DNA of 64,000 nt from NCBI GenBank assembly GCA_964036045.1, contig OZ038381.1, positions 143,477,596-143,541,595 on the forward strand. The letters run 5' to 3'. The DNA comes from Eutreptiella sp. 'Long Island Sound 2002'. Lineage: Eukaryota > Euglenozoa > Euglenophyceae > Eutreptiales > Eutreptiaceae. Below, piece by piece: positions 9,554-59,187 of the stretch; within the stretch, counting starts at the first letter, position 1, and every line of letters starts with the position of its first letter. The translations under genes were made by a program, and so were the position numbers. The notes under the pieces are model-generated. The model saw only the letters and a list, made by a program, of their open reading frames with translations. It ran no database searches and was not told the DNA's origin.

Positions 9554-9579
9554 TGCGGGGCGTCGCTGCGGGGCGCTCA

Positions 9580-36880: not shown

Positions 36881-36959
36881 AGTCGCCTAAATTTTGAGAA
36901 GGTTTTAAGGCCTAATCTTGGCTAACATATGCTTTAGCACTCGATGACACACCTGGATA

Positions 36960-37958
36960 CTACTGAATACTATACTTGTCTACTATCCAGCATTCAGGGA
37001 TGGCATGACGGTGGCATGATTCGGGGGGTTTGGGGGGTGGCATGATGTCCCCTCTTGAGGTTCGGGGGGTGGCATGATGCCAAAAATGTGCAAAAGCGTC
37101 ATGGGAAGGTGCACCAACGTCATAGGAGTGTGCAAAAGCCTCATCAGAAGGTGCAACAACCTCATTCGATTGTGCAAAAGCCTCATCGGAAGGTGCAACA
37201 TCCCCATAGCATTGTGCAAAAGCCTCATCGCAAGGGGCAACCACCCCATCAGATTGTGCAAAAGCTTCTTCAAAAGGTGCAACAACCTCATAGGATTGTG
37301 CAAAAGCCTCATCGGAAGGTGCAACCACCCCATCAGATTGTGCAAAAGCCTCATCAAAAGGGGCAACAACCCCATCAGATGGTGCAAAAGCTTCTTCAAA
37401 AGGCGCAACAACCTCATAGCATTGTGTAACCACCCCATCAGATTGTGCAAAAGCCTCGACAAAAGGTGCAACCACCTCATTCGATTGTGCAAAAGCCTCA
37501 TCAAAAGGTGCAACACCCTCAGAGGATTGTGCAAAAGCCTCGTCAAAAGGTGCAACCACCTCATTCGATTGTGCAAAAGCGTCATCAAAAGGTGCAACAC
37601 CCTCAGAGGATTGTGCAAAAGCCTCGACAAAAGGTGCAACCACCTCATTCGATTGTGCAAAAGCCTCAACAGAAGATGCAACACCCTCAGAGAATTATGC
37701 AAAAGCCTTGACAAAAGGTGCAACCACCTCATTCGATTGTGCAACAGCCTCATCAAAAGGTGCAACACCCTCAGAGAAGTGTGCAAAAGCCTCATCGGGA
37801 GGTACAACCACCTCATAGGATTGTGCAAAAGCCTCAACAAAAGGTGCAACCACCTCGCTGCAGAACACCTGCTGCTTATGAAATCTGCACCCTAGCCTGG
37901 CATGGCACTTGATGACAACCTTGGAGTAGCCGTTTTGAAACAGCCAGGCCACCGTCAC
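36960..37958 (-). pseudogene. Possible 14-residue-repeat protein over a 42-bp array
   Basis: On the minus strand a frame from 37,958 has a non-repetitive start (MTVAWLFQNGYSKVVIKCHA) and then about 21 copies of a 14-residue unit of the form VAPFxEAFAQSxxV, ending at 36,960. A single TAA at 37,695 breaks it. Because the unit is 42 bp, other frames are open as well, including a plus-strand Cys/Arg-rich one, so coding is not proven. I prefer the minus frame because it has a unique N-terminus and balanced composition. Confidence 0.3.
36990..37860. repeat. 42-bp tandem repeat array, about 21 copies
   Basis: The core ATTGTGCAAAAGCCTCATC recurs every 42 bases with substitutions that alternate between neighbouring copies (GGTGCAACCACCTCATTCG type and GGTGCAACACCCTCAGAGG type), so a higher-order 84-bp arrangement is present around 37,470-37,700. 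Confidence 0.95.
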
Positions 37959-39795: not shown

Positions 39796-41944
39796 GGGAC
39801 GCTGCGGCGGACACGCACAAGCAAGCAGGCAGGCAAAGCATTGCGCTCACTGGGGCATCCTCATGCTCATGTCATGTGACAAAGCGTTTCAGGATGCTTG
39901 CCACTCTTAAACAAGGGAACAAAAGTATGTACAGCAACACATCAGGATATGTACACATGGGGTTAAGACTGGACTGGGGTAAGGGTATAACAGGACAATA
40001 GATACTCGGTCCCAACTCATATCCCCATCCCAGCTCCGACCCTCTCAGTGGCTGGCAGGGGCCCGGGCTCAAACACAACCCATGCCTTGCTCAGTCCGGA
40101 CCCTGAAACCCTGCCAATGGGGGAGGGTGTCCCGCCCTGCCACAGGCGAGTTCCTGGGAAGCAAGAGGCTCCAGTGCCAAACGACATTGGCTTCCCGTGT
40201 TCCCTAACGAGGGGTCCCAACTCCCCATTTGAGCCAGAGATAAGGCCCCGCCATTATCCCCTAGGAGTTGGTAGCTGAAAATGGGCTGTTTCAGCCCAAA
40301 CTGATATTAGCTAGAAAAACTCCAAAATTGACCCCTCGTCCGGACAATCCAGAGGTAGGGACGAGACAACTGACTCTATGCCCCTCAAGTATGAACACTA
40401 TGGAACCCTCACCCAACCTGGCTCCTTCTGAGTCCCCGGCATCAGGGCGCCACAGTTTCGCCATGTGGGGTCATGATGCCAAAATCATCAAAAGTGGAGT
40501 CATTCCCACGGGTGGCTTTCTCGGCCAGGGCTAGGCCAATGATCCACAGGATAGGAGGCAGGACCTGGGACCTATATCTAAGTGCAAGACTTGGATTTAG
40601 GTCCGGGCTTCCCAAAGACATAGAGAGGTGGGACCACCAACTGACCACATGGGGGGCAAAAATTGCGGTCCCAAAAAGGGGTCATTTTGGCTGCTCAAAA
40701 TGAGCCAAAATGGAGGGTATCCCCAATGGTATATCTCCACGCCGGCTCGGAGATCTGATTCACCATTCCATATGCTATTCACTGGGAGTCCAACGAAGAC
40801 TCACATGTCCTTGGCTCGCATGAATCTCTATGGGCCTAGGGGTGGTGATGACCCAACCTGGGTCCACAAATGCCAAAATGGCAAAATTGGCCGTCTCGGG
40901 CGACCGTCCAGGGTAGGAAACCTTGGCGATCTTGTCACGCCATGCCTTGTTTCACAACCCCTGATATCCCCTTTGGTCCCATGCCCTGGGCTATGACCTG
41001 CTGTCACACTGGCTGCTTACTGTTCATTGAGGGGATAAACACGCGGATGGGGCAGAAAGCAGCATGCGGTGCAAAGGGGGGGATCATGGATCGCACCAAA
41101 AGGTGAATAAATTCGAATGAGCCGGAGGAGCAAATACCAAACTCAATGGTGTTCAACCCTTGGTCATACGGTACAATAATTGCATTTTTATTCTGGCTAG
41201 GTTCCTTGCCCCATGGAGATATGGTAGTTCCAATATGGCATACAATGGCAAAAACAGCGAAATTTGGCCAAAATGGCCTGCACTCATGATTCCATATCTC
41301 CATGGCCACGGTGGGGAGCCTTCCAACCAAAGATGCTATACAGACATGGGACTTAGGTCCCAATATATGCCACTTGCCAACCCTCATGGTCGCCCCTAGC
41401 TATTTTCCCCATTGGAGGAAAAATGACACGCAAATGGGGCAGAATGGCAACATACCCCAAATGGGGTGACTCACAACTCTCCCTTCAAGAGGAGAGGCCA
41501 CATGGGGAAACACCCCATTCGATGCGGGTTTATGTGCCCTCTCCGATTCGCCCTTACTCTTGGTCAAGTGGCGCACGCAACCTCGGGCCGAATATTAATG
41601 GGGAGACGGGGTTTGTGGCCATTCTGGGCAAAACGGCCAAAATTCACCCAAAAGTGGTCACTCGAAAAATCGTATGTCCGTATCGGAAAAGAAATGAGCC
41701 TCGGGCGTTTGCATGCATGCAAACCGAATCTTTGCTTCCCTTTTGCAACAAGGGTTGGGGTTCAAAGCATAATGGAAGCATTTTTAACACCCCAATCCTT
41801 GAAGCACACTATTTATGGGAAAAAGTGCATATATCGGTGATATTGGTATGTACATATCTTTGGGTCATTGAAGAACAAAAATATGAGTAAACATTTTTGG
41901 AGTAGGCCCATAGTAGGTGCCTTCAAATATGCACACTATGGTTC
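39796..41944. other. 2.1-kb region without recognised genes
   Basis: Ordinary base composition with many CCAAAATGG-like words. Short frames on both strands are uninformative. It forms the left flank of the TIR transposon. Confidence 0.45.
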
Positions 41945-41978
41945 CCCGCACGCCCACTTGGTCCCTAGTTTCATCTTA
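41945..41978 (+). repeat. Left terminal inverted repeat
   Basis: 34 bp, matching the reverse complement of 58,047-58,080 at 33 positions. The inner end leads into subterminal TTCATCTTAAGATGAA palindromes. Confidence 0.9.
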
Positions 41979-42030
41979 AGAAATTTATCTTCTTAAGATG
42001 AAAAATTCATCTTAAGATGAAAAGTAAGAA
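41971..42030. promoter_or_regulatory. Subterminal palindromic motif cluster, left end
   Basis: Contains TTCATCTTAAG, TCTTCTTAAGATGAA and a full TTCATCTTAAGATGAA palindrome followed by three AAGAAGAAA words. A transposase-binding role is inferred from the position and repetition. Confidence 0.5.
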
Positions 42031-43000
42031 GAAAAATAAGAAGAATATCTGCTGAAATTTTTTTTTGGGTTCCACCTTTTTGCCTACACTTTTTTGTAGT
42101 TTTACAGTTCTGGGGACTCTTTGCACCTTTGCAGTTGTAAACATTTACATTTATCATTGCAGCTATGAAGTTGATGGATTGCTTGATTAATCATTAGGAT
42201 TTGCCCAAATCGGAAATCCACCCCCTATTGTTGTGCACATCCGCCTCTTGTTTGCCCGTTTTTTTCAGAGCGATGAAAACCGCAATTCAACAACTACAAA
42301 CAGCAATCAAGAAGATAACACATCAATACTCAGCTTATGGTGACGATGCTGCCACGTTACTAGCGGCTTCCTTTGATGGTTCTACTCTTGGTCGCTCCCT
42401 ATTCCACCAAATCAACAAGAAATTGCAACTGGCCGCAAAAAATGTTGAGCTGCACAATTTCACAAAAAACTGGTGTAGTCCTATACAAGCTGTGTGCTTC
42501 ATTGTGGCACTTGGCCTCTCCCGGGCAAAATACAGGCAACTCCTGTCCTTTGCAAGTGCCAAGCAGCGAGCCTACTTCAATGCCACCAGGGTTCGTGTTC
42601 CCAATTTTTGTCCCCGGGTCGACGGACTCTGGAGGACACATGGAAAATTCTCACAAGCCTTTGTTCATTGGAGTCACCTACATGGTACAACAACACCGTC
42701 TCAATTTCCTGCCCACTCGAAGAATGGTTGGAATATGTGCAGTCCTAGGATACTATCTGGGACACTGTTGCAGACCCGCAGGATGGTATCACATTGATTA
42801 TCCGAGGCGATGGGTATCCGGTTGCGGGATGTAGTTGGACGCAGTCAAATGTGTCCATCATGGACCATGGTCGCCATGCAAGGACAACCAGCCACATGTG
42901 GGTGATTTCACTCGCCTATGCAAGCGACAAGGACATGGAGGACCTGAAGATTCTTTGGAAAACCAATGTGGAGATGTGCTGCGCAGCATTCTTCGCGATG

Positions 43001-43090
43001 TTTCATCGTAAGATGAATTTTTCATCGTAAGATGAACTTTTCATCGTAAGATGAATTTTTCATCGTAAGAAGAAAATTTAAGAAGAAAAA
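43001..43090. promoter_or_regulatory. Palindromic motif cluster in intron 1
   Basis: Four successive TTCATCGTAAGATGAA-type units, the last as TTCATCGTAAGAAGAAA. Each carries GTAAG, which also matches a splice donor. The intron ends TTCCCTGCAG at 43,108. Confidence 0.7.
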
Positions 43091-44227
43091 GTTCTCTCTT
43101 CCCTGCAGGCCATTCAGCAAATCTTGACGACTGGTTGCATTTCTCTGCGGTGTGACATGGTGCCGGGTACCTGCAAGTTTGGTGGCGACCTACCGTTTCT
43201 CTGTGGTATCCTCGGACTCAGTACAACTTGGATGGTTCCTTCCCCATTCTCCTATGGTATTTGGTCTGATGTGCACCAAGAATTCATTGGGTGGGAAAGG
43301 CAGAGAACACCTGAGGAGGACACACAATGCAGAGGCAAGCTGCCTGTTGTACAGGCTGGAAAGGGAGTCAAATATGAACCCATGTTTGACACTGATAGAT
43401 CATCATTTTTCCCTTGTATTCTACACATCATGATGATCTGTGGTAAGCTGATCTTATCCTTTACACGCAAGGTTGCACTGGACTTGCCCAACGATAGGGT
43501 GCTGCTGCTGAAAGCGACGTTCAAGGCTGCCAACATCCGATGGAGAGGGTTGCACAAGGAGTCTGCACCAGATGGCCAGGAAGTCCAGCGTCTGCTTTGC
43601 GCTTGGGATACAGTGGCACACGTGTTGAGCATTCACAGATCTGCAGCAGATGAGGCTGTGCGGCAGCTGGGTGAAGTACTGCGCCAACTGTATCACTCTG
43701 GGTCCCGGGTTGACGGCTTGGAAGATCGGGTGGAGCTAGCGGCACGCAACTTCCAGTTGCATTGTGTTCCCAATTCGAAATCGTCGTATCTGTACATCCT
43801 CATCCATGACATGAAAACCATCATCAGCGAATGTCGCAACTTGGGAGTCGGTCTGGCGATGTTTTCAAACGACCTGACAGAAACCATGAATGCAATTATG
43901 AAGGGAATATACCTCCAGCACAGCAGCAGAGGGGGTGGTTCTGCAACAGAATACGGATTCCGCGAAGCCTTTGCACTAAGACAGACCATTCTGCATGTTT
44001 TTCTATTGAATCATGCACACCTGGAAGCCCATGGCGTGCCACGACGCTGCACATCACGTCTGGCATCACTGGATCGCTCAATACAGAAGCCGAAATGGAC
44101 CAAGATTTCAAAGAATTTCTGGAGTTCAGAAAGTGGAAAGAGGTATGCTGTGAAAATAATCATGATACTAACAATAAGAATAATAACAATAATTTTTTCA
44201 AAATTTTTTTTTGAAATTTTTGTCGTC

Positions 44228-44310
44228 GGGAAAATTCATCTTAAAATTTCTTCTTAAGACGAAAATATTCATCGTAAGAAGAAAAAGTCGTCGTACGAAG
44301 AAAAAATCCG
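44228..44310. promoter_or_regulatory. Palindromic motif cluster in intron 2
   Basis: Contains TTCATCTTAAAA, TTCTTCTTAAGACGAAA, TTCATCGTAAGAAGAAA and GTCGTCGTACGAAGAAA inside the 44,143-44,360 intron. Confidence 0.7.
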
Positions 44311-45184
44311 GAAAAAACAGAAAAAATTGCAAAACCAGAAAATAAATTTATTTTTAGCAGACAACGCCATTCCTGCCACCTCAGGCCCAGAAACAAGCTC
44401 CGGCAGCCACGGTGACTCCAAGCAAGGAGCTGCCAGCTGCAGATCAATTGGTTCACACACAAACACAATTGGCCCAGGACCCTGTGCGACAACTTGACCT
44501 CAGTCCCAGGGACCGCCCACGCAGTGCACTTGGTAGCCCCCTTTCTGAAATGTCTGGCTACAAGCCATCTAGCCATGAGAAGGTGGTCCTGGAGGAACGC
44601 CACGTGAACCCAATGTTATTGAAGTGCCTGGAGGATGATGTTGATATTCCTGGGCCGTCGACACCCATTTACAATGACCCTACCATGGTGCACGTGACAC
44701 TCAATCATGCTTTTGGTCGTTGTCCGAACAAGCTTACGAAGCAGCACCAGAGCATGAGCCTGGATGCCTGGGTTACAGCAAATCAGCTGGCTGGCCAACG
44801 ACCTTTTGGTGTCCCATTGACTGAAAAGCAGAGAAAGAATCCACCCCGTCAGCCTCCGGTGCCTCCAACCGCCCTGCTAAAATTTTTGGTAGTCATCTGG
44901 AAATTACATGGAGCCGTTGAGCTTCATGCTGAAGCGGGGGAATGGATGCTATGGTTTTCCAGCACCCCGCACCTGACATTTGGAATATTTCCATCCCTGA
45001 GGGCAAGCAGAAAGGGAGACCTCCAGTAACATCTGCGCCACCACCTGCTATGAGATCGACATCTGCACCATTACAAGAACCAAGTGAGCCTCCATCACCA
45101 GTAGCAGCAGCACCAAATTGGAGCGCAACGTTGATGGCAGCCGTGACTGCTGGACTCCAGGAGAACGCGACAAAGCAGCGCCAA

Positions 45185-45189
45185 TATGA
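45185..45189. repeat. Left TSD of Ty3-B (TATGA)
   Basis: TATGA is repeated at 56,563-56,567. Discounting the insertion restores an exon end CAATATGAG followed by GTAGAC, a good splice donor. Confidence 0.85.
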
Positions 45190-45986
45190 AGAAAAGTTTA
45201 TAGTGGTTTCAGCACTGTGTTTTTGCTTCTCCTGCTGCTTCTTGTTGCTGTAGGGTTTTCTGCTGCTTGTTTTGGATGATGAAAACCTTTTGTTTGCAGA
45301 AATGGAGTCAATAGAGTCAATCCAGGATAACCCAAGCCAGAAGTATGCAAGGAAAAGAGAATTCAGGATCAAAGCATGAAGGGCTGCAGTGTAAACAGTG
45401 AAAGATGATTGGGTATTCACAGAAACTGCAACTCAGGTCACAAATGATTGCATATTCACAAAGATAGCTGAAATGTTTTTGGAAAAGAGTTAGAAAACTG
45501 CCCCATGGTCACTCTCTCTCCATAGTGCCATCTCAGGAGATGTGCACTCTTTGTTTTGGGTCCCATATGTGCTGAGGTGGCAGGGCATGTGGCGATGAGG
45601 TCACTGCCATGTCACATGGGATCTTCCTACTTAGCTAGGCTGACCAGGAATTGAACCCAGGACCTCTCAAAAAGAGGTGCCTAGCCCCCTAGGGTGCATA
45701 CCACTAGGGCAGATAAGTATTCAGGGAAAAACATAGATAAATTCATAGGCTCTGCCTTGGATATGTCAGTTCTCAGTTAACTCAGGAAAAGATGATTTGC
45801 CTCAGATTGAAAGGGGATTAAGGGGTCCACTCCATATCCTGATTGGGTGTTTGGTTCCATAGGTCAAAATGTGTTATCACCAGTTTTGGTGGGACCAATA
45901 CTAAGATAAAAATGCATGGATGCTCAGTGCATCTCTAATACAACTAGAATATGCCTCAAAGCAATGGAAAAGCACTTTTTCTTACC
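45190..45986 (-). repeat. 3' LTR of Ty3-B
   Basis: 797 bp, AGAAAAG... to ...TTCTTACC on the plus strand. The last base differs from the other LTR (T), and the Ty3-A LTR also supports T. It includes the tRNA-like segment at 45,638-45,717. Confidence 0.9.
45638..45717 (-). other. tRNA-like segment in the Ty3-B 3' LTR
   Basis: Same arrangement as at 4,616: A-box-like CCTAGTGGTATG, an anticodon-like stem-loop with ACCTC/GAGGT, and a B box GGTTCAATTCC; one T-stem pair is mismatched here. Confidence 0.5.
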
Positions 45987-45994
45987 CCCCCCTT
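45987..45994 (-). other. Polypurine tract of Ty3-B
   Basis: Minus-strand AAGGGGGG directly before the 3' LTR, as in Ty3-A (4,966-4,973). It primes plus-strand DNA synthesis in LTR retrotransposons. Confidence 0.8.
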
Positions 45995-48240
45995 GTGCTG
46001 TGGTGGCCACCACTGTCGCATTTTAGAAAAAAGGGATTTTTTCTTGGCCTTTCCTTGGTTTCCACATCTACTTTAAAATACCTATAGCTTCCCTCACACA
46101 GAAAAATGGGCGCTCACCATGGCTGGCGCTCTTTTGCTGCTCTGATTGTATCATTTCCTACAGAAGACTCAGCGCTCATGGCGCTGCCGGGGCTCCTGTG
46201 GCTTGGTTGGGTTAGTATGGGAGCATGCCAAACATGTGCATATGCATCCCTCCCTCCAAGACGCAGCGTCGACACAAACCCAACGCAACACACAATATAC
46301 ACACTCGCATTGGTTCTCGTAAACCTGCTGGCGACCTGTGACCTGTCTTAGGGCGAAGGGAGTCGAAAGAAAAATTAATTTGCCCCTTGGTGGGGTCTTG
46401 GTTCTGCTCAGTCTCTCCAGGCACCTGCGTTTCGGCCCGAACACGGCCTACTCAGCGAGGCTGCGCGTGGGTATCTGCAGAGGCAGGAATGGGAGAATTT
46501 TGGACAAATCCACGCAAAAACGAAGCGACGACATCAAAATCTGTCAAATGACGGCGTAGAATTTTTCTGAAACAACACACCAGAGCAGAATCCAATTGTG
46601 CATCAGAAGCACATTTTTATAGAAATTAGAGTCATCTCTGGATTTTTTAAATCCAGAAATTCATACGCATAAAATGGCGGCGCGCAGGAGCGGCTCCTAG
46701 CGAAGCGCCGGAAAATGGGGAAATAATGGAATTATAAACGTATGTCTCACGTAGTCTTGAAAATGACGAGACACACATTAATAAATAAACATACAGATTC
46801 CACCCACACTAATAGAAGATTCGAAAATTCAAGAATTCGACAATCAACGAAAAAGACTTCAATGAATCAGGTATAAACTACAGGTATGCTCGTCTCGTAT
46901 GCCGCATACACATTGCTCGTCTCGTGTCTCCGTGAACGAGCCTTGTAGCAGCGCTAACAACGATAGGCGGCGATTGAGGGATTGATTAGAAAGATTGCAG
47001 ATGATTAGCGGTCAGATCAGGGTGATTAGACATACACACAAGTGCATAGCAACGTTCTTCGCGTGCGCCCCTCACTTGCTCTCTCTCCCAGCAATTGGTA
47101 AGGTGAGTAAGCCCAGGCGGGGCCACCCCCTGGTGGAGTTCGTGATTGGCACTCAGATGGGCAGGTTTGCCCACAATCTTCGTGCATACTCGCGCATGCA
47201 CACACGCATTAAAGGGTAGGCCACGCGAAGTGCGCACGGTAAACCTTGTTTAGGCTACCCAGGGGCTCCTCGGTACGTTCTTTAAGAGAACCTGAGGAGT
47301 CCCTTAAAGCTTGCTTGCTTGACAAGGGTAGCTGGTCCTCCAGCGTGTTTGCGGACAGTGTATTATAGGTCACACTGAGAAGGGTATAATACCTGGAGTG
47401 TGGCTTGGTTCCTCCGCCGCAAACGCCCTTTCATTTGCCTTTGTTTTACAGGTGGGCAGGTAGGGTGATTGGTGCAGCAGCATTTTTTTTTATGCCCTGC
47501 TAAACAAGGGCGCAGATCACACAAACAAGTAACTCCGTCTCTGCCTGTGGCAGAGCAGGGAGTCCGACTTCATCGACATCTGCGCCGTGCACGCAAGAGC
47601 ACCTCTTCCCTCCAAGCCCTAGCAGGGGAAACGCGTTGTGGCGTCCCCTGTTAGGCCACAGTTGCTTAGCAGCGCTGTGTTCTCTTGTCATTTCACAGGA
47701 GGGTCGCTAGGACCCAGGAGACCTTTGCCTTCGCAACGCCCAGTAGAGTGTGCGTGTAGGAGTGGTAGTCCTGAGTGGGGGCTTGAGCCAGTTGCCCCAG
47801 TGCTCGCCCACCAGGATGGTGCCACTGTAGGCTGTGTAGGACCTGTAGTGCGTGTGTCACTGTCCCACCCGTTTCCTGCATTTTTAGCAGGGTTGGTGGG
47901 CTGTGGCAGTGGTTAGGTCAGTGTTTTGGCCATTTAGCAAAACGGCGTTTTCATGCCTTCATAGCTTTTGGCCACCCCTGCCTGTAGTAGACAGATAGGT
48001 AGGGAAAACAATACCTGGAATAGTACGCTGGGTATTTCCCAAAGGTTTTGCGCCAGCACAGAAATTGGGCGCTTAGGGGAGGGGAGACCCGGGGCGTACC
48101 CCGTGGCATCAATAAGCCAACCCTCCAGGTTTAGCAAGGGCGCAGACTTGGGTATAATTAGGAGACCACTTCTGCGGCTTGCTCTCAGGACCTTAGGAAT
48201 AGCACACTCACACATACGCTTTGGCAGGTAAGGGTAAGGT
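45995..48240 (-). other. Long 3' untranslated region of Ty3-B
   Basis: No reading frame of note. It is collinear with Ty3-A (4,974-6,711 and 12,254-12,754). It contains the two conserved hairpins at 47,262-47,303 and 47,343-47,428 and a single copy of the CCCAGTAGAG site used by the 5.5-kb insertion in Ty3-A. Confidence 0.75.
47262..47428. other. Two conserved hairpins in the Ty3-B 3' region
   Basis: Hairpin 1 is identical in its stems to that of Ty3-A. Hairpin 2 keeps the inner stem GTATTATA/TATAATAC, and its outer stem is GTTTGCGG/CCGCAAAC, where Ty3-A has GGGGTGTTTG/CAAACACCCC. Confidence 0.55.
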
Positions 48241-51200
48241 TCAGTCCCTAGCTTTAGTCTTGGAGGCAAGCGTCTCAGCGAGCCTCAGCAACTCACCAAG
48301 GTTGTTCTGGGACAAGTAGTCAACCAGAACTGAGTTTAGGCGTCCCTCAGGTAGAACAAATGCAGAGAAGGGCTCCCAGGTGGCCTCTTCGACTCCAAAC
48401 CCTTCCCAGAGGGTGAGGAAGCGCCAACCTGGCAATAGCGGTGGCGTAGGACAGACTTCACCAGGTAGAAGCCCTCCTTAGCCATCTCCTCGGCGTTCAT
48501 GTCGGGGAGTTCACCTTCAAGTTCCATAGGGCTGGCAGCCCCTTGTAGGTCCAGAGCGGCGATTTCCTCGTCGTTCAGCTCCCACTCCTCCCCACAGAGG
48601 TCTTCAGGATCATGGTAGCGCTTCAGGTGTTGAGCAGCGCACACCAGTGTCCCCCCTAGACGGGGAGAACACCGCACGGTGATACGGTGTCCATCCACAG
48701 ATAGAATCTTGTACGGCCCGAAGTATGGCTCATCGCTGGTAGAGCGTGGCCAGGCGGGTAGTCGACTGTGGTGCACCAGCACCCAGTCCCCCTCTTGGTA
48801 GGTGGCCGGTACTCGGTGCTTGTTCTTCTTGTTCCACTGACGCTCCCTCACTCTCTGGAGCATAGCCTTGGCCTTGTCCACCTTCGCTTGTTGCTCTTGG
48901 ACCCATTCACCCACAGAAGAATGGGTGTCCTCTGGATAGGGGGCATGTAGGAACCATGCCGGGCGCCCTAGGAATAGCTCATGGGGCGAGTAGCCAGTAG
49001 CTGAACTCTCTTGGGAGTTCATCATCAAGGATATGACGGGGAGTAGTCTCACCCAGTCTCTGGTGCGTTCAGTTTTGCACCATATCCGTACGTTCTCCTT
49101 CAGGACACGGATCTGTCGCTCACATAGGCGGTTGCTCGTGTGAGAGTAGGGAATCCCCGTAGACACCTGGACATTGAGGGATCTCAGGACCCTCTTGTAC
49201 CAGCCAGTATCTGAGCGTACTCGTACGTCCTCATCGGAGTTGATCTCCTTGGGCGCCCCATAGACACAAAACCACTCCTCCAGGAGTATCTTGATAGTCT
49301 CCTCCCCGGTAATGTGCTTGGTACATGGGAACACCCTGGTAAACCTGGTCAACCCACAGGTTACCACGAGGGCGAAGTCATAGCCCCCGAACTTCGGCAT
49401 CTCCGTGTAGTCCACGTATAGAACACTGTTAGCACAGTGAGGGATGGGCAGGGTCGAGTAGAGACCTCTGTCCCTGATATCCCCTGGTTTACAGGATCTG
49501 CATGGGCACTTGTCCACGATAGGCTGGAGGGATTTCCGCAGTTGGTCGTCAGTTCACGTAGTGTGGAACCACTGCTTGAACAGCCTCAGGGTACGGTCAG
49601 CACCCACATGACCACTGGACTCATGGGTCCACTTCAGCAGCACTGGGACTCGGTCACTAGGCACCACGATGCGGTCCTCGTGCCAGAGGTAGCTCTTGTC
49701 CCTCTTCCACTGGTCTTGGTTGACCAGGAGGGGTTCAAGGCGTTTCTCCAGGCGCTTGTAGATATCCCCAAACTCCTTCAGGTACTCCGATTGTTGGAGT
49801 CCATCCAGGGGGCGTATCATGGTCATGTTCAGGTCCAGGTGTACGTCCATACGGCTGAACGCCTCCTTAGCCAGCGCTTCAGACCGGGCACCAATCAGGG
49901 CGTCGAAGTTGTTGCGGCTGATGTAGTCGGCACACTCGTTCTTCACACCCTGGATATGGTGTACCGTCAGCCGTAGTTGACTGAGGTAGGTCCACCAGCG
50001 CCGTAGCTTGGCCTTCTCAGGTGGGGGCCCCTTCTGGAAACTGCGGACCGGTTCTTGGTCGCATAGCCAGACCACAGGGTTACTCCCCAACAGTCGTGCT
50101 TGTGAGGATAGCACCAGCATACCCGCGAGCAGTTCCTGCTCATAGGTGGAGTAGTTCCCCCTGGCCTGGTTCCACTTCCAGTTCCAGTGGCCCAGAGGTA
50201 CTAGGACCCACTTGTCGTCAGGGTAGCTGGGCTTGAGGGTTCCATCTCGGTTGAGACCTTCCGTCCCCCATTGGGAAATGGCCGAGTCGAACTCCTCCTT
50301 CTCCAGTGCTTGCCATTGGAACAACGTTCCACCACCGCCCACATTGCTGGCGTCGGTCACCAGGATAATCTCCCCTTGTGCCCTAGGCACGCCCAAGCAT
50401 TTGGCGTTGGCTACCTTGTCTTTGAGCTCGTCAAACGCTTGTTGCTCTTGTGGGCCCCAGCGCCAAGTAGTACTCTTCTTGATCAAGTCCGTTAGAACGG
50501 CGCTGGTGTAGGTGAAGTTCTTGACGTGGCGGCGATAGAAGTTGCACGCCCCAATGGAACTGCGTACATCATGAAGTCCTTTCTTGGGGTCTTCGTGTCG
50601 TACCTTGGCATCCATCAGGGGTTTGGCCTTAGAGGCCGCTGGGGTCCACCACCCATAGCCAACGTCAAACCCCAAGTACTGCATGATCTCTTGCATGAAC
50701 TCACACTTCTCCAGCTTGAGTCGTGTTTGGTTCTCCTGGCAGACCGCAAAGAACTCACCCAAGAGGATTAGGTGATCCTCCTGGGTATTGGTACCGAGGC
50801 ATACATCGTCGATATGAGCCTCCATCTGGGCACCACGGGATATGAGCTCCTGCACCTTAGGTCTCCTTCGTAGGATGGACAAGATCTTGTTCATCAGCTC
50901 TTGGAATAGAGCGGGTGCGTTAGCCACGCCAAACGGCATGACCTTCCACTTGAACACCCTCCCCTGAGGGGTGATGAAGGCCAGTAGTTCCTGTGCGTTG
51001 GGCGTCAGGTCCACTTGCCAGAATCCGCTTCGCTTATCCATCTTGGTCTTGTAGCGGCAGGAGGCTATCTTCTCCAGGGTAGACTCCATATTGGGAATGG
51101 ACCCTGAGTGGTTCAGCGTCTTCTTGTTCAGCTCTCCGTAGTCCACTACCAGCTGTTTGGCTGTAGACCCAGGTTTAGCCACCAGGGAACAGGGGCTGCA

Positions 51201-52190
51201 GTGTAGGGGGTAGTCCCCGTCCTTGTACTCCAGGACTAGGCCAGCGTCGATACATTCTTGTATCTGTGGCTCGATCTCGTCGGCCTGCTCTTTAGGAGCT
51301 GGATAGGATCTCCTCCGGATCTTGTGACCCACGAACTCGGGTTTCAGCTTGAGGTCCATCTGTACCAGCTTGTCACATGAGGCTGGAGGGGGTAGTTCTC
51401 CGAACACCTCCAGATAGGTCCTTATAAGCTTCTGCACCCGCGGGTCCAATACCTTGATCTTGTCCTCCATGTCCTCGGCAGAGTGTAAGTTGCTTGCCCC
51501 CTGAGTAATAGACGTCGGGAGGTGGTCCTCCACCGACTCTTCGCCCGTGGTAGTATCCTTCAGCCCTTGGTAGGCATATAGAAGGTCTTGTTCAACCATC
51601 TCCGGTGGACGATGGCAACATAGGCACGCTCGAGGGGGTTCACATACACATTCCTCCGAGAGGTCGTCCTCCTCTGGGGTCCTCACATGGGCGCCCCACA
51701 CGCTCTTCATGAGCTTAAGAGCTACCTCCCTTTGCCAGGTGGTGATCTTCTGTTCGAGGTCCTCCTTCAATTGGGATAGGTCTCCCATACGTCCTTGCTT
51801 CAGTGGCCATGAGCTGCGGGTAGGCTCCGCGTAGCATAGCTTTTTCGCCACCAACTTCCTCTTGGAATCCACATACTCCCTGAGCCTGGATCGAGGGTCC
51901 AGCTCCTCGTCCACGGGGTCTTCCAACCTCATGGAGAGTAGGGGTTTCAGTGGGGCGACGTACTCGGCGTTCTCCACTTCCTCCACACAGGTCTGCACGA
52001 AGAAGGCGTCGTGCTCAGTTTCGTCTTCTGAGTGGATAGAGCCAGGTAGCTCAGATAGTCCACACTCAGAGACTCCATCAGGAACAGGTACATGACAGGG
52101 AGAGTTGGGGGCGTTGGTGTCAGTCACGACGTACTCATCTCCTCCGGGTGTAGTCTCAACAGCATCTTGAGGTCGTAGGCAATCCTTCAA
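48241..52190 (-). pseudogene. Ty3-B pol: reverse transcriptase, RNase H, integrase, chromodomain
   Basis: The frame from 52,190 opens with about 240 residues of linker containing a Cys cluster (CVCEPPRACLCC). RT follows (QLVVDYGELNKKTLNHSGSI; FGVANAPALFQELMNKIL; AHIDDVCLGTNTQED), then RNase H (LVTDASNVGGGGTLFQW) and the integrase zinc finger (ESSGHVGADRT ... CPCRSC). A TGA replaces a Trp codon at 49,554-49,556 (Ty3-A keeps Trp). The same frame continues with the integrase core (VLYVDYTEMPKFGGYD, EINSDEDV, NRLCERQIRVLKE). One missing C at about 48,430 shifts the chromodomain out of frame (48,435-48,241). HIDD replaces the usual YxDD or FIDD at the RT active site in both copies, so it is a family trait rather than decay. 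Confidence 0.92.
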
Positions 52191-52201
52191 GTCACCGGAG
52201 G

Positions 52202-53110
52202 CTAGTCCATCGCTTTCTCGTTGTATAGCCTGGACCAGAGTCGGGTCCAGATCCTCCCAGTAAATGGAGGTAAGACCACGTCCACCACGCTAAGCATACT
52301 CCCCCATCCAGGCCTCCCAATAGGCGTCTTGCGTCCCAAAGGCACGTAGATGGCCTCATCAGGCAAACGAACAGAGCTGATAGTCAGCCTGTCCAGGAGG
52401 TTTCGCCAGTACTCGTTGCCCCCATGGGCTCCCCAATCGGGGGAACACAGGACCATACTGGAACGTTCCAAGGCCACCTTGGTCAGCACCTTCCCCAGTT
52501 CACTGAACCTGGGGTTCCCGTAGGCCATCCCGAAAGAGGGCCAGTAAAATTTGTAGCTGCAGTTCTTCCCCTTGCTGCAGTATAGGTCCAGTACATGTTG
52601 CTTGTCGCTGGCGAACAACTCCACACTCAGGTCTTCTCGAGAGTAACCCAACTCCTTCAGACCTTGGTCTAGGACTTCCCCCAATAGTTGATAGTCCTCA
52701 GTTTTGGAGGCCGCCATCATGTTCGAGGGCTCCTCCTTCGATAGCCTCAAGTAACTCGAGGTATGTTCCGACTGCTCCAGTGGCACAGACTCTCTGCCAC
52801 TGCTGTGGTCCACGTAGAGGAGATAGGGCGCTTGCAGCGTCAGGGATTGTATCTGGGAGTGCTGTACAAAGAAGTCAGTACCTAGTTCAAAGTTGAAGGC
52901 CTCAGTGTCCATCACATAGAACCGATGGGCGATAGTCCGAGAGCCCATAGGTACCTCCACTTCACAGTCCCCGCAGCTGTGCACCACATGTCCATCCCCC
53001 ATACGTATAGCAGCGGTGGTCATGGTGTTCTTCAGGCTCCCACAAGGTAAAATTTTCTTGGCCACTATAGATATTGTGGCGCCAGTATCCAGTACCCCCA
53101 GGGTATTCAC
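52202..53110 (-). pseudogene. Ty3-B protease region of pol
   Basis: Retropepsin-like aspartic protease: the active-site box LGVLDTGATISIVAKK is close to the N-terminus, followed by a VEVPMGSRTIAHRFYVMD strand and a second hydrophobic Gly motif region. The remaining 200 residues link to RT. The frame differs from both gag and RT, and the frame from 53,110 starts next to a stop. It cleaves the Gag-Pol precursor in known relatives. Confidence 0.8.
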
Positions 53111-53171
53111 GTCCCCCTAGTTGGATACGTACCCAAAACACCAGGTCTTGGATGCCACCAGAGCGTCCCCG

Positions 53172-53952
53172 TCAGAACTCCGCGAGACAGGTCACCTCGA
53201 ACCCCTTGTTCCGCAATTTGCGGGCCATCCTCATGAAACGGCTCCACTTCTTAGCGTTGCCGTCATCACCACCTTCATGCTCACGCTTGGCTCCTTGTTC
53301 TTGCTGGGCCTGCGTTTGTGAGCGTGTGGTCGGACCAGATTGCCCTCCAGAGGGCTCGGAGTTCCCCCCTGGATTAGGGTTGGGGTTGCCTCCGTTCTTG
53401 TCCTTGTTCTTGTTGTCGGGCTGGCGGTTAGCGCCTCCTCCTCGTCCACCTTGACCCTTGTCTTGCCCTTGACCACGTCCTTTCGACTTGCCCTTGCCGG
53501 AGTCGTTGCCTTTGCCTTTGCCTCCACCTTTGCTTGGGCCTTTGCCAGGAACTTTCCCTTTTAAGCTTCGCCGATGGGCGTTGCTTATGGTAGCACTCAT
53601 CCTCGTAGTGCTTCCGCTTACCGCAGAATGCACACGTGATGGTGCACCGGTAATGATCCGGCAGCTTCGCTTTAGCGCCGGTGTTCTTTTCCTGCTGCTT
53701 CCCCTGAACTACGAAGCAGTCTCGCTGCTCGCAGTCAGAGGCGTGCTGCAGGTGGCCCTGCTCGTGTCTGGCATCACACCAGAATAGCTCCTTCACGTTC
53801 TCCATGGTACGGGCGTGGGCGTGTTTGGGGGTAGTCCCCTGCCCAGGTCGGGACCCTTGGTACCCTTTGCCTCCAGAACCTCCACCAACAGGACGGTAGT
53901 TGTTCAGGTGCTGGTCGCTCTCCTTCTCCAGCGCCAGCTCCAGGAGCAGCAC
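53172..53952 (-). pseudogene. Ty3-B nucleocapsid part of gag
   Basis: Continues the gag frame after an in-frame TAA at 53,953-53,956. A CCHC zinc knuckle is visible, CAFCGKRKHYEDEC (CX2CX4HX4C), flanked by basic sequence. The plausible frame then shifts near 53,560-53,630 into a Gly/Lys-rich tail (SKGGGKGKGNDSGKGKSKGR) ending at 53,172. It binds RNA in the particle. Confidence 0.8.
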
Positions 53953-53955
53953 GCA

Positions 53956-55665
53956 TTAATCCTCGTAGTGGAATGATCTAGCCTTGCGCTCAGCCGTCGA
54001 ACGGCACTCGTCCCATAGCTCTCGAGGGAGCTTGGCCACCAACCAGAATAGCAGGTCGTCGCTGCTGTAGGAGATGGTCGTCAGTCGTCCAGTCCAGTGA
54101 TCCAGTTCAGCCAACAGCTCAGATACCCTGCCAGGCTTGGGGTTGTTGGGCAGCACGGGTAGGTTCTGGATCTCGACGCTGATGGAGAGGTCGGTCTCGA
54201 AGGTCGGGTACTGCCTCTCCAGGGCAACCAACACATCGGCAAAGGTGGCAGAGTTAGTCACGATCTGCCTGACCTGCTTCTCCAGGTACTTGGTCTTGCA
54301 GCACTGCAGGAGCAGATCGCACTTCACTCGCCCTCTAGCGTGGGTTTGGCCGGTCAGTCGTAGGAACCGGCCAAAATTCTCAGCGAACTCGCTGAGGTCC
54401 TTGCCTGTGAACTCAGGCAGGTTCACTACGATTTTGGAGGTGGCAATAGCCTTCGCCTCCTGAGTGCTGCGTCCTTCAGGGCGTCGGGTCTTCTTCTTCT
54501 TCTTCTTCTTCTTACCCTTGGGGTCCTCGGGGTCCTCAGGGTCATCGTCATCTGAGGGCGAAGAAGAATCCATCGACGGCGGCTCGTCATCAGAGGGGTC
54601 TCCGCCTAGATCACTGGAGCCATAAGGCTCCACGTCCACCATAGCCCTTAAGGCTGTCAGCCCCAGCCGGTCCAGCTCGGCCCTCGTCGAGTTCGTCACG
54701 TGGCTGTAGGGCGGCTGGGCCGTTCTCGGCACGAAGGGACTTCTCGGAATAGCTGCAGGCGTCGGCATCGGTCTGCTCCTCAGGCTCCCCAGGGTATTTG
54801 TCAACCCTGCCGTCAGGTGGTTAGCCTGTACTCGGTGGGGTGACATTCCCACCGAGATAGGTGACGTTTGGGGCGGGATCATCAGGGGCTCCAGCTTCTC
54901 ACGGATCTCTTGAGTGAGGTCGCCCACGATTTTTGAAGTGGCTCCTCGGAGCACCTCGTTGATCTCCGACCGCGTCAGGGACCTGTTGGAAGATCTTCCC
55001 GATCCTCTACTCCTGCCTCCAAGAGACTCTGGTCCTCTCCTCAACCCACTCAAGGGTGCATACCAAGGTGCATACCCAGGAGCATACCCCGGAACATCCA
55101 TATAGGTTCCAGTAGCGTGTAGTGGATGGGGATAGTCAGCCGCATACCATCGCGGCACAGAGCTGGAAGCCACCGGCTCACTGGCAGTAGTTGCCTCATG
55201 GAGCGCAGTGGTAGGTGGGCCCATACCATAGGTGGGGTAGGGAGGCATGCCAGTAAAGCCTGTGCCCTCTGCCATAGGCGGGTTGGTTGTGGAAGTGGAT
55301 GTTGCGGCGGCTGGGAGTGTGGTGGTTATAGGAGAGGGTGATGCGTGGAGGCCAGAAGCGGTTGGTGCGCCTTCGAAGGTAGGGTCTTGCGTCAGGTCTT
55401 GCCCTTGTTCCTCTCCTTCGTCTGCTACTTCTCCAGCATCCTTCTCGCTCTCTCCTCTCTTCCTCTTCACAGGCTGAGAGACCACGAACACCTCCTCGAC
55501 AGACAGGGCCCTGAAGGCCGTCTGGAGTCCATCCAGGGAGTCCTCAGCCGCATCCACTGGCCCATGTAAGGGCTCCGCCGAAGGTACAGCGCCAGGTGCC
55601 GGCCTTGCCGGTGCCTCAGGCGCTGGCGCTGTCCTCACGTCAGCGTCCTCCTTTCTTGGATCCAT
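53956..55665 (-). CDS. Ty3-B Gag, capsid part
   Basis: 569 residues from Met at 55,665 to a TAA at 53,956. The N-terminal half is Pro/Ser/Thr-rich and probably disordered, with a short RS-rich region and a KKKKKKK run in the middle. The last 170 residues read as a retrotransposon capsid domain (FTGKDLSEFAENFGRFLRLT; LLLQCCKTKYLEKQVRQI; LLFWLVAKLPRELWDECR). The normal gag end is downstream, since the zinc knuckle lies after the stop; the TAA is therefore probably a mutation, though stop-codon readthrough cannot be excluded. It assembles the virus-like particle in the cytoplasm. Confidence 0.88.
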   Translation of the reverse strand: MDPRKEDADVRTAPAPEAPARPAPGAVPSAEPLHGPVDAAEDSLDGLQTAFRALSVEEVFVVSQPVKRKRGESEKDAGEVADEGEEQGQDLTQDPTFEGAPTASGLHASPSPITTTLPAAATSTSTTNPPMAEGTGFTGMPPYPTYGMGPPTTALHEATTASEPVASSSVPRWYAADYPHPLHATGTYMDVPGYAPGYAPWYAPLSGLRRGPESLGGRSRGSGRSSNRSLTRSEINEVLRGATSKIVGDLTQEIREKLEPLMIPPQTSPISVGMSPHRVQANHLTAGLTNTLGSLRSRPMPTPAAIPRSPFVPRTAQPPYSHVTNSTRAELDRLGLTALRAMVDVEPYGSSDLGGDPSDDEPPSMDSSSPSDDDDPEDPEDPKGKKKKKKKKTRRPEGRSTQEAKAIATSKIVVNLPEFTGKDLSEFAENFGRFLRLTGQTHARGRVKCDLLLQCCKTKYLEKQVRQIVTNSATFADVLVALERQYPTFETDLSISVEIQNLPVLPNNPKPGRVSELLAELDHWTGRLTTISYSSDDLLFWLVAKLPRELWDECRSTAERKARSFHYED

Positions 55666-55749
55666 CTTCTTTCACCCTTCTGCTTATATTTGCCCGTACT
55701 CGGCGCACTGGATGTACGGCACGGGTTTGCTGCCGGTGCGCAGAGACAG

Positions 55750-55766
55750 GCTGCCTCTTGCTACCA
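55750..55766 (-). other. Primer-binding site of Ty3-B
   Basis: Minus-strand TGGTAGCAAGAGGCAG follows the 5' LTR with a one-base overlap. It would pair with a tRNA 3' end ...CTTGCTACCA. An A1-U72 acceptor as implied here is the mark of eukaryotic initiator Met tRNA, so iMet is the likely primer. Confidence 0.7.
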
Positions 55767-56562
55767 GAAAGGTTTATAGTGGTTTCAGCACTGTGTTTTT
55801 GCTTCTCCTGCTGCTTGCTGTTGCTGTAGGGTTTCCTGCTGCTTGTTTTGGATGATAAAGACCTTTTGTTTGCAGAAAAAGAGTCAATAGAGTCAATCCA
55901 GGATAACCCAAGCCAGAAGTATGCAAGGAGAAGAGAATTCAGGATCAAAGCATGAAGGGCTGCAGTGTAAACAGTGAAAGATGATTGGATATTCACAGAA
56001 ACTGCAACTCAGGTCACAAATGAATGCATATTCACAAAGATAGCTGAAATGTTTTTGGAAAAGAGTTAGAAAACTGCCCCATGGTCACTCTCTCTCCATA
56101 GTGCCATCTCAGGAGATGTGCACTCTTTGTTTTGGGTCCCATCTGTGCTGAGGTGGCAGGGCATGTGGCGATGAGGTCACTGCCATGTCACATGGGATCT
56201 TCCTACTTAGCTAGGCTGACCAGGAATTGAACCCAGGACCTCTCAAAAAGAGGTGCCTAGCCCCCTAGGGTGCATACCACTAGGGCAGATAAGTATTCAG
56301 GGAAAAACATAGATAAATTCATAGGCTCTGCCTTGGATATGTCAGTTCTCAGTTAACTCAGGAAAAGATGATTTGCCTCAGATTGAAAGGGGATTAAGGG
56401 GTCCACTCCATATCCTGATTGGGTGTTTGGTTCCATAGGTCAAAATGTGTTATCACCAGTTTTGGTGGGACCAATACTAAGATAAAAATGCATGGATGCT
56501 CAGTGCATCTCTAACACAACTAGAATATGCCTCAAAGCAATGGAAAAGCACTTTTTCTTACT
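55766..56562 (-). repeat. 5' LTR of Ty3-B
   Basis: 797 bp. On the minus strand it begins AGTAAGAAAAAG and ends CCTTTCT. It contains the tRNA-like segment at 56,214-56,293. The promoter of the element should be here, but I cannot pick out a TATA box with confidence. Confidence 0.9.
56214..56293 (-). other. tRNA-like segment in the Ty3-B 5' LTR
   Basis: Same as at 45,638-45,717, with the B box GGTTCAATTCC and an anticodon-like arm. Confidence 0.5.
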
Positions 56563-56567
56563 TATGA
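56563..56567. repeat. Right TSD of Ty3-B (TATGA)
   Basis: Followed by G and then the splice donor GTAGAC of intron 3 of the TIR element gene. Confidence 0.85.
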
Positions 56568-56611
56568 GGTAGACAACCTGTGAAGAGGTGCGCGCGTAAC
56601 GTGCGACGATT

Positions 56612-56686
56612 CATCTTAAAAATTCATCGTAAGACGAATAATTCATCGTACGAAGAAAGCAATTCGTCGTAGGATGAAACGGTACG
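56612..56686. promoter_or_regulatory. Palindromic motif cluster in intron 3
   Basis: TTCATCTTAAAAATTCATC, then GTAAGACGAATAATTCATC, GTACGAAGAAAG and TTCGTCGTAGGATGAAA, all inside the 56,569-56,719 intron. Confidence 0.7.
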
Positions 56687-57830
56687 GAAAATGTCGTTTG
56701 TTCATTGCTCTTTCCTCAGGTTGAAGCTGTTGAGCGCTCAGCTGTAGGAGGTCAATTTGTTGTGGGCAATATTGGTACTGAGCTTGGGGCTCAGCATGTT
56801 CTCACTGCAGGAGGTATCCTAAATTCACTGAGATGTGCAGCCGCTCGAACATTAGGGATGCTACAAGCATTGGAGACTGATGAGAACGCAGCAAGAGCAA
56901 TGCAGCATGAGCAGAAAAAGGCTGTTCACTGGGAGCCCTGGCAGAGCCCAGCGAAAACGGCAACAACAACCGTGAAAATTGCAAAGCCCATTAACCCGAA
57001 TGCCATGCGGACACTGCTTGCCCTTCAGGAACAAGCCACAGGGACGGGCACACCAAAGAGTAATGCAAAAAGTAATGAAAAAAGCGAACCGACAAAAGCA
57101 GCACCACCAGCCACCAGAAAACGCAAGTGGGAATCTGAGTCTGAAAACGAGGAGTCGGAAGAACCTGAGGAGGATGAAGGTGAAGACGAGGAAGAGGAGA
57201 ATGACAGTGATGCCAGCGATGAAGGCGTCACCCAAATAACTCCAGCCAAAGGAATAAAGTGGTCGTATGTCCCATACCAGGCGGAGGCCACTGACGAATG
57301 GAAGGTGGCACCAGGGATCGCTCGTCGATTTTATGAGCCTAGAGGAACGAAAGTATCTGACGAACTAGTGGCTGAAGCGGAGCGGACTAAGAGCACTATC
57401 TTTTGGCTTCCCGACGATGCGACTGACAAGAGCTGGAACGTGGAAGGTCAATACCTTGCTGCTCGCATCGCGTTTCGCACTCCGAAAGAAGCCGAGCTTT
57501 ACTGCAAAGGCATGACGCTGGCACTGAAGAAGCGCAAGATGAAGGAACAGCAGCAGAAGGAGCGCGAAGCCTGCAAGGCACGCAAGGCAGAAGCTGCTGC
57601 AGAACCAGCTGCACCACCAGCACCAGCTGCAGATCAAGAAAAGCCCGAGGAACAAACAGATAAGGTGTCAGAAGGTGCAGGTGCGAGTGGTGCAGCGCCT
57701 GACGGTGCAGAGGGCAATTGAACGTATCTATTTTGATTGCCATTGAGTGTTGGAAGTGACTGTTACGACTTCCACTGTTACTGTGTCAGATTTTGGTGCG
57801 GATTTTTGCATGTCGCTTCTGTCGCGCTAA

Positions 57831-58046
57831 ATTCATCGTAAACTTTCATCGTACGACGAAATTATTCTTCCTACGACGAATTTTCTGTGAAAACACTTTC
57901 CGTGCGAAACGTTGCGGCGACAGGCAGAAACAGCGGCCCAACCACAGATTTGGAACCAATATGACCGAAAAAATGAAGGCATAATGAATAAGATTTAATT
58001 TCAAGATTTTCATCTTAAACATTTTAAGATGAATATTGAGTTCTGG
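57831..58046. promoter_or_regulatory. Palindromic motif clusters in the 3' untranslated end
   Basis: TTCATCGTAAACTTTCATCG, GTACGACGAAA and CCTACGACGAA lie at 57,833-57,882, and TTTTCATCTTAAACATTTTAA with GATGAA at 58,008-58,033, just inside the right TIR. Confidence 0.65.
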
Positions 58047-58080
58047 TAAGATGAAACTAGGGACCAAGTGGGCGCGCGGG
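58047..58080 (-). repeat. Right terminal inverted repeat
   Basis: 34 bp, the inverse of 41,945-41,978 with one mismatch (A/G at the sixth base). Confidence 0.9.
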
Positions 58081-59187
58081 TTTAGATTGTCTCCGCCCAC
58101 TCATGTCATTAGTGTTTGCATATGAGCGCGTGTGCAAAGAGGCAGCTTGGCACGCGTGCTCACAAGGCGACATTATATAAAATAGAAGACAAGGTTGCAA
58201 AAATCAACCAAGCCATCCACGATGTCCTTCGCGGTCTCCGATTTACATATTGCCTTGGTTTAGGGCTCAACTCCCCGAAGGCTTCGAGTATGAGCCTCGG
58301 GGGATTGGCCACTTTGGCCTAATTTTGGACCAAAATTTGCCCTTTTTCAAAAAATGAGTTTTGGTACGCATTGAATTGCGTGGAGCCATCGTTGAGTTGG
58401 CTCGAAAAACGAAAATGACCTAGGGCTTTTGGTCTTGTGAGCATTGTGATCGGTTATTAATGTGCATGCTCACAAGGCCACAAACTTAGCGTTTGCGCAC
58501 GCAAACGACTTTGGTTTACAACACCCATACGCTGCCTAAAACATCCCTATTGCCCTCTTCCCCATGCAAAGTGATATGTCCACGTGAAAGGGGCATGAAT
58601 GAGAGGCATAGGGGGGGAATGTGGGGTTCTGTCCGAACTTGTGGTCCTTGAGAACCATGAGTTCGAGCAATCGACGGAAAATCTTGCCCGCTGATTTTCT
58701 CTCAGACGCAACGGCGAAAAATTCTGGTGAACACACCAGATGAAAGTACAAGAAAGACCCTCTAGATCCAGCCCTTAAGTTCCCTGAGAACCTCAAAGGT
58801 ACTCGAGAAAAATCCCTCACAAAACTCGCCACGGAGAAGCGACAACAGGCAGCGATTTCACGACAATTAGAAATCACGGTAGAAATCGGGTATTTCACCG
58901 ATTTCTAACCGAAAATCGACCAAGACAGTAAAATTATGGTAATTCTACATCGATTGAATGGTTAGGGATCGGATTCCGGATCCCGCGGATCAGAGAACAG
59001 GAATATCCCGCTGACAGCCGGTGTCAACAGCTTCTGCACGGTTATGATGGCTCACGGGCAGCCGGGCCATGGGCCATAGGTTCTGGGTACCGCTTCACCG
59101 CCCTCCTTAAAGCAAACCCTGGCGGGGGCTCGATAACACCCAAGCATGGCAGCGGGTACCCAGGACCATCTCCTGAAGGGGGGGGGG
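58081..59187. other. Right flank of the TIR element, no gene seen
   Basis: Mixed sequence. A minus frame at 58,898-58,536 has no recognisable domain. GCTCACAAGGC occurs near 58,150 and 58,470, a weak hint of a diverged repeat. A G10 run ends at 59,187. Confidence 0.4.

Follow-up and report, generated by a model that had tools for sequence, protein, structure and literature searches.

Locus and Element Structure

The analyzed window, a stretch of 64,000 nucleotides from Eutreptiella sp. 'Long Island Sound 2002' (contig OZ038381.1, positions 143,477,596 to 143,541,595 of the forward strand), contains a DNA transposon that is bounded by terminal inverted repeats (TIRs) and target site duplications (TSDs), carries a four-exon gene, and is interrupted by a Ty3-type long terminal repeat (LTR) retrotransposon. 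It is very probably a dead copy of a family of autonomous cut-and-paste DNA transposons whose gene was once under selection and encoded a product related to RAG1 and Chapaev, the copy having later been split by the Ty3 element. The features of the locus are as follows (window coordinates):

41942–41943, unstranded: left TSD, TT (sequence as read here; the 2-bp duplication was established on 14 other loci)
41944–41978, plus: left TIR, 35 bp, consisting of a GC-rich tip of about 25 bp and half a palindromic motif
41987–42021, plus: left subterminal array made up of two TTCATCKTAAGATGAA units
42273–42973, plus: exon 1, holding the first catalytic aspartate (D1) in RGDGYP; frameshifted in the window copy
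42974–43108, plus: intron 1, four motif units; donor altered in the window copy
43109–44149, plus: exon 2, with the second aspartate (D2) in GGD, CILH, and the glutamate (E) in DLTE; the 3' border was placed by reading frame
44150–44360, plus: intron 2 with motif units; splice sites inferred
44361–45189, plus: main part of exon 3, frameshifted in the window copy; final base of the exon at 56568
45185–45189 and 56563–56567, unstranded: first and second copy of the TATGA duplication of the Ty3 insertion in exon 3
45190–56562, minus: Ty3-type LTR retrotransposon, a later insert outside the DNA transposon proper; LTRs at 45190–45985 and 55766–56561
56569–56719, plus: intron 3, three motif units; splice sites inferred
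56720–57721, plus: exon 4, acidic and basic C-terminus; without a family match above the cut-off
57831–58033, plus: 3' untranslated region and subterminal motif units
58047–58080, minus: right TIR, outermost family G missing
58081–58082, unstranded: right TSD, TT, provided that the missing G is allowed for

Element Ends, Copy Number, and Target Site Duplication

A preliminary description of the locus had reported two 34-bp inverted repeats 16.1 kb apart, and these arms were confirmed: positions 41945–41978 and 58047–58080 are complementary at 33 of 34 positions, and the lone mismatch (left CCCGCAC, right CCCGCGC) mostly reflects a family-wide difference between left and right ends. The family tip extends one base beyond the 34-bp arm, with a C at 41944 on the left and a G on the right that is missing from the window copy, and the ends of the element thus read CCCCGC..GCGGGG. 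A 24-bp tip pattern occurred 117 times in the 2.28-Gb genome, including the two occurrences in the window, but not once in the reversed control, which shows that the inverted repeats are not due to chance. When 200 bp of the left end were searched against the genome, all 39 scored matches besides the window began at query positions 38–46, which is the element edge (40 of 1,878 first-look candidates scored, the window among them); in the right-end search, all 39 such matches ended within query positions 198–206 (40 of 1,306 candidates scored, again including the window). Exon 2 had at least 121 matches in the genome (117 of 5,391 candidates scored).

Twenty copies were fetched, and the 14 with both ends served for counting TSDs after one additional C/G had been trimmed at each tip. 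A 2-bp TSD was found at 12 of these 14 loci, compared with 1.54 expected from mismatched pairs, whereas duplications of 3, 4, and 5 bp were seen at 1, 0, and 0 of the same loci. The duplicated dinucleotides varied (TT, AA, TG, AT, TA, GT, AC). The two loci without a matching 2-bp TSD were L047 and L057; for the latter, comparison with Ty3 sequence around the insertion point suggests that a single changed base causes the mismatch. An empty site was available for L053, a copy located inside a relative of the Ty3 element, for which the window's own Ty3 provides the unoccupied sequence and by eye indicates a duplication of AT. A 185-bp piece of the left end resembling a miniature inverted-repeat transposable element (L002:1501-1684) was rejected as a further empty site, since its Ty3 flanks derive from distant points on opposite strands and thus represent a rearranged junction.

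By subtraction of the Ty3 insert and its duplication, the element has a length of 4,758 bp. Eight of the 14 measured copies are 4,693–4,770 bp long, the remainder having lengths of 3,938–4,526 or 5,585–6,239 bp with deletions or inserts. At G000:C4:151843269-151844330, a sequence of about 1.06 kb with both ends is, by its coordinates only, an apparent internal-deletion derivative against the cut-off exon 2 of another copy. One might suppose, from the introns of the gene and its lack of a family match, that the repeats face each other by coincidence or come from two unrelated elements on either side of a host gene. This can practically be dismissed in view of the copy number, the exact tips found genome-wide, and the complete copies of the same length with sharp ends and TSDs. 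These data demonstrate a multicopy family with fixed ends, 2-bp target duplications, and mobility.

The expectations attached to the preliminary description were thus borne out: these TIRs bracket the same gene at other loci, including copies without Ty3, an empty site exists, and the target duplication is of constant size. Its view that the transposon had been hidden by a nested Ty3 element also holds. The insert has two LTRs that are 98.4% identical over 796 bp and carries, on its minus-strand reading, domains for reverse transcriptase, RNase H, and integrase; it is flanked by the TATGA duplication, and relatives of the transposon (4.69–4.77 kb, without Ty3) are continuous across the insertion point. 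Since the LTRs differ by 1.6% while the coding parts of the transposon copies differ pairwise by about 4–6% per site, the Ty3 insertion is later than the transposon copies. Transposon copies and window-type Ty3 elements were repeatedly observed inside or beside one another, with the window-type LTR present in L051, L054, and L059 and Ty3 internal sequence in L002, L008, L016, L040, L051, L053, and L057. Some nesting of this kind is to be expected because LTR elements make up 21.8% of the Euglena gracilis genome, according to the genome composition given in PMC11252322.

Gene Structure, Decay, and Former Selection

The compact element of 4.76 kb with an intron-containing gene, as proposed earlier, was retained in length and general structure, but the exon borders had to be moved. 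Exon 1 ends at 42973, where the donor reads GTGTGC in eight of nine other aligned copies, GTGTAC in L055, and ATGTGC in the window. An alternative exon 1 end at 42994 was rejected because the alignment with the sister family described below showed a 7-residue gap exactly there. The usual start of intron 1 follows the GTGTG consensus that PMC11170887 reports for E. gracilis. Each of the three introns can be positioned so that it falls between codons. Exon 1 forms a single reading frame in nine other full or nearly full copies; the window copy has two extra bases there, its exon 3 frame is broken as well, and it is dead.

Among eight copies, the three codon positions of exon 2 vary alike (0.048, 0.038, and 0.045), and no codon-position bias of change within the family was detected among the copies compared, which are decaying neutrally. 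A different pattern emerged against L059, a member of an older subfamily with 77% nucleotide identity: the values by codon position were 0.21/0.19/0.34 in exon 2 (about 220 codons) and 0.15/0.18/0.33 in the compared part of exon 1 (82 codons), these being eight non-independent comparisons to one sequence. Because third codon positions differ most in this contrast, the gene was formerly, during its active period, under purifying selection.

Homology of the Transposase

Searches of Pfam and PDB and a first database search with the window protein retrieved only 17 near copies with 70–92% identity. The initial impression that the protein fits no transposase family was not upheld, as relatives became apparent through a sister family and animal proteins. 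A search for animal proteins with similar blocks matched 224 uncharacterised proteins, of which 120 were listed (P0018–P0137, the named ones from cnidarians, sponges, a pearl oyster, and a nemertean); named sources among those listed are Paramuricea, Nematostella, Ephydatia, Amphimedon, Pinctada, and Tubulanus. Alignment of the window family with the animal family by hhalign covered 379 columns with a score of 50.8 (probability 79, E 1.5e-5), compared with scores of at most 27.8 for 19 column shuffles and one reversal. One animal protein used as query against the window's genome gave 15 weak matches (best E 0.002), three of which (L061–L063) represent a second transposase family of the same genome. 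The L062 open reading frame (ORF) matches the window-type protein over 478 amino acids with 27% identity (BLASTP E 5e-45 in a very small set). With the animal proteins, likewise a small set (120), its E value is about 4e-12.

For further comparison, a clade of "Euglena-type" sequences was used, which includes P0138–P0173 as well as L062 and a group of 57% identity to it from the window's genome. The profile of this clade (A3), which contains no window-family row, aligned with the animal profile (A1) over 332 columns (hhalign probability 97.2, E 3.4e-11). In a search of PDB with A1, RAG1 and the lancelet RAG1L accounted for 16 of 17 matches at E <=10, the best of them at 7.6e-6, and three of seven animal proteins touched the Pfam RAG1 model, all below the cut-off. 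In an unrooted tree, the Euglena-type rows fell on one side of the animals with a support of 100/100, and the window family formed a deep branch; identity to the animal proteins is 18–20%. Made at the level of sequence, these comparisons show that the product is related to the RAG1/Chapaev part of the EnSpm-Mirage-Chapaev-Transib (CMCT) clade of DDE transposases, with other Euglena-type families and the animal proteins as intermediates.

Catalytic and Zinc-Binding Residues

Eighteen animal rows were aligned with 18 Euglena-type rows. All of the animal rows carry D1, D2, both cysteines (C), the LH motif, both histidines (H), and E. Among the Euglena-type rows, D2 is present in 18/18, and D1 and E each in 14 of 15 (for D1, of the rows with a letter at that site); the exceptions are P0168 for D1, which starts with foreign sequence, and P0163 for E, which has an unrelated C-terminus. 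In the window family, D1, D2, and E are found in 32, 31, and 28 of 33 distinct copies. The blocks recognized in the preliminary description are therefore real and could be assigned, RGDG(Y/F)P to D1, GGD..LCxILGLST to D2, and DLTETMN to E; CxIHxxI is better described as CxLH and corresponds to the LH block.

The putative zinc ligands behave differently. The first C is gapped in all 18 Euglena-type rows, and the second is kept in 10 and replaced by S, P, N, or D in the other eight. In each of the 15 rows covering these sites, Y, L, or N takes the place of the first H, and D or E that of the second. The animal DELH corresponds to CxLH in 17 of 18 Euglena-type rows and to CVRH in one, LH thus being kept in 17/18. 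In RAG1, the catalytic triad is D600, D708, and E962 and the zinc ligands are C727, C730, H937, and H942; the spacings in the animal rows (19 from D to C and 20 from H to E) agree with this numbering. DELH was rejected as the location of the second catalytic D, as the RAG1 stretch aligns, if weakly, at GGD and the Euglena-type rows have a C at the DELH position. At this position (389 in P0018), C-x-x-H occurs in all 18 Euglena-type rows. Together with the lost ligands, this could represent a rebuilt metal site.

Classification and Comparison with Known Transposases

The CMCT clade is characterized, in the clade description of PMC12730594 (2025), by a C(2)C/H(3-4)H zinc motif between the second D and E, TSDs of 2–5 bp, and in most cases 5'-CA..TG-3' ends. 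The element agrees with this description in having a DDE transposase homologous to clade members, as seen via intermediate families and not by direct comparison with CMCT entries in Repbase, and in its 2-bp TSD; the ends CCCCGC..GCGGGG do not conform to CA..TG. The element thus descends from or beside the CMCT clade but lacks two of its marks, the zinc motif and the CA..TG ends. For Chapaev, the features listed in PMC4079192 are TSDs of 3–4 bp, CAC..GTG ends, and the motifs C(2)C, LH, and H(4)H. Of these, only LH was found in the Euglena-type rows, and neither the TSD nor the ends of the family correspond. Elements of the Transib/RAGL type have 5-bp TSDs and ends resembling recombination signal sequences or of the CAC type (PMC9435367, PMC7204232), in contrast to the 2 bp and CCCCGC of this family; a 5-bp TSD was found at none of the 14 loci, and a direct match to RAG1 was lacking in the A3 search of PDB. 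EnSpm/CACTA, Plavaka, ESTA, and Lanisha elements, as characterized in PMC12730594, share with the family a TSD within 2–5 bp and the D, D, E residues, but differ from it in their CA..TG ends and the C(2)C/H(3-4)H motif.

The animal proteins show the same block order as the Euglena-type clade (SGDG, GGD..GL, LH, FTGQGVEKNND) and the same D, D, E residues, but are distinguished by their zinc ligands, DELH in place of CxLH, and only about 20% identity. They are probably Chapaev-like, a name that rests on the motif triple given in PMC4079192 and not on a Repbase comparison. The second family L061–L063 and the P0144 family have the same blocks as the window family, lack the same zinc ligands, and carry CxLH, but unlike the window family they have a single uninterrupted ORF across the exon 1–2 region.

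Several observations weigh against the proposed affiliation and gene model. The score between A1 and RAG1 derives mainly from the H..E stretch (20.6 bits; the animal profile matches RAG1 and lancelet RAG1L chiefly at H(4)H..E), the stretch around the second D (5.1 bits in 3jbw) and C(2)C matching weakly. The A3 profile found no RAG1 in PDB, neither the exons nor A3 members matched a transposase model in Pfam, and the Pfam RAG1 model had no match in the window's genome, as was also the case in 14 control genomes. The zinc motif of the clade is absent from the Euglena-type rows, several of the P01xx proteins are presumed to be from Euglena, and the splice sites of introns 2 and 3 were placed from the reading frame and GT-AG only. 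The absence of both RAG1 from the A3 search and the zinc site would fit a new superfamily in which a RAG1-like arrangement evolved separately. Such convergence is nevertheless very improbable in view of the colinear alignments, over 332 columns in one case and 379 in the other (this second one scoring far higher than its shuffles), and the BLASTP matches between L062 and the animal proteins.

It is considered unlikely that the element is an ordinary member of Chapaev or EnSpm (CACTA) whose sequence has drifted without forming a separate branch. While this reading would account for the retained LH motif and D, D, E residues, the animal relatives with the Chapaev motifs of PMC4079192, and a TSD within the CMCT range of PMC12730594, it is contradicted by ends other than CAC..GTG, a TSD of 2 instead of 3–4 bp, the absence of the first C and first H together with replacement of the second H in every Euglena-type row covering them, and the low identity to the animal proteins. 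The comparisons point instead to a new divergent branch of RAG1/Chapaev-like DDE transposases and not to a transposase without relatives. Whether this branch has the rank of a superfamily of its own, with a lost zinc site (possibly replaced by C-x-x-H), a 2-bp stagger, and its own gene seeded with introns from subterminal repeats, is a more tentative proposal, conceivable but somewhat on the doubtful side. No earlier description of the element was found in the literature searched on Euglena transposons and transposases, subscription papers and Repbase reports lying outside that scope. Unnamed transposases and recombinases are abundant in the E. gracilis genome and some of them are expressed, as reported in PMC12455990; these may include the family described here.

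Palindromic Units and the Origin of the Introns

The 16-bp near-palindromic unit TTCATCKTAAGATGAA has 28 matches in the window, with 0.43 expected (<=3 mismatches, both strands). All but one of these (27/28) lie inside the element, at 14 places in both ends and all three introns, with a spacing of 19–21 bp within arrays. In nine of nine copies the unit occurs in every non-coding segment and in none of the four exons, and each of the 10 pairings of the five non-coding segments gave an alignment scoring higher than any of 100 composition shuffles. Across the genome, a doubled unit was counted 75 times, against 0 for the control. CACTA elements likewise carry subterminal repeats.

Related, decaying units are present in intron 1 of L059. 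In the sister ORF L062, the site of intron 1 is uninterrupted, and the exons joined at the GTGTG donor align there free of gaps. Intron 1 thus either arose in the lineage of the window family or disappeared cleanly from the sister family, and its make-up favours the former, with repeat-bearing non-coding DNA of the element itself as the source. This resembles in idea the introners (PMC9860276), introns derived from transposon repeats, but differs in that the repeat-bearing introns are located inside the transposon's own gene. Alternatively, the intron units might be transposase binding sites kept for self-control and not leftovers of intron origin, as their regular spacing in all non-coding segments of the nine copies, their absence from exons, and the related units of the older subfamily would allow. 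However, conservation of the units is explained by descent in copies that evolve neutrally, and the L059 units are decaying, which makes this explanation rather unlikely, though not markedly so.

In the mechanism proposed for the family, the transposase would bind both the GC-rich tips and the palindromic units of the subterminal regions, its predicted D, D, E site would excise the element by double-strand cuts, and the element would be joined to target strands two bases apart. Intron 1 would have been gained in the window lineage from the repeat-bearing non-coding DNA. The window copy was afterwards split by the Ty3 element.

Other Observations

Two tandem repeat regions lie elsewhere in the window, 35 copies of a 65-bp repeat with a strong A/T imbalance at 7278–9558 and long arrays of 21/42/57/63/120-bp repeats at 34557–37856. 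Rfam gave no match in the window. A search of viral contigs with the animal profile yielded 116 pattern matches but no relative. A 24-base core of the E. gracilis spliced leader had 3,283 exact copies in the genome (reversed control 0).

Sister Family and Significance

The L062 search yielded 19 matches with 57–58% identity (88 of 8,939 candidates scored), all with a 506-amino acid open frame without a stop and 10 of them sharing an identical score; one of the 19 places is G000:C10:25538287-25539681. The protein database contains a 56-member cluster (P0144) at the same identity. With its 19 uninterrupted and closely similar copies, this sister family is probably young and looks recently or currently active.

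RAG1, the enzyme that assembles antibody genes, came from this broad group of transposases. A branch that keeps the catalytic residues without the zinc site, and that has another target spacing and other ends, can be used to test what the zinc site is for, and the young-looking sister family could be studied alive. Moreover, the introns that share the terminal repeat of the element offer a tangible example in which an intron may have arisen within a transposon.

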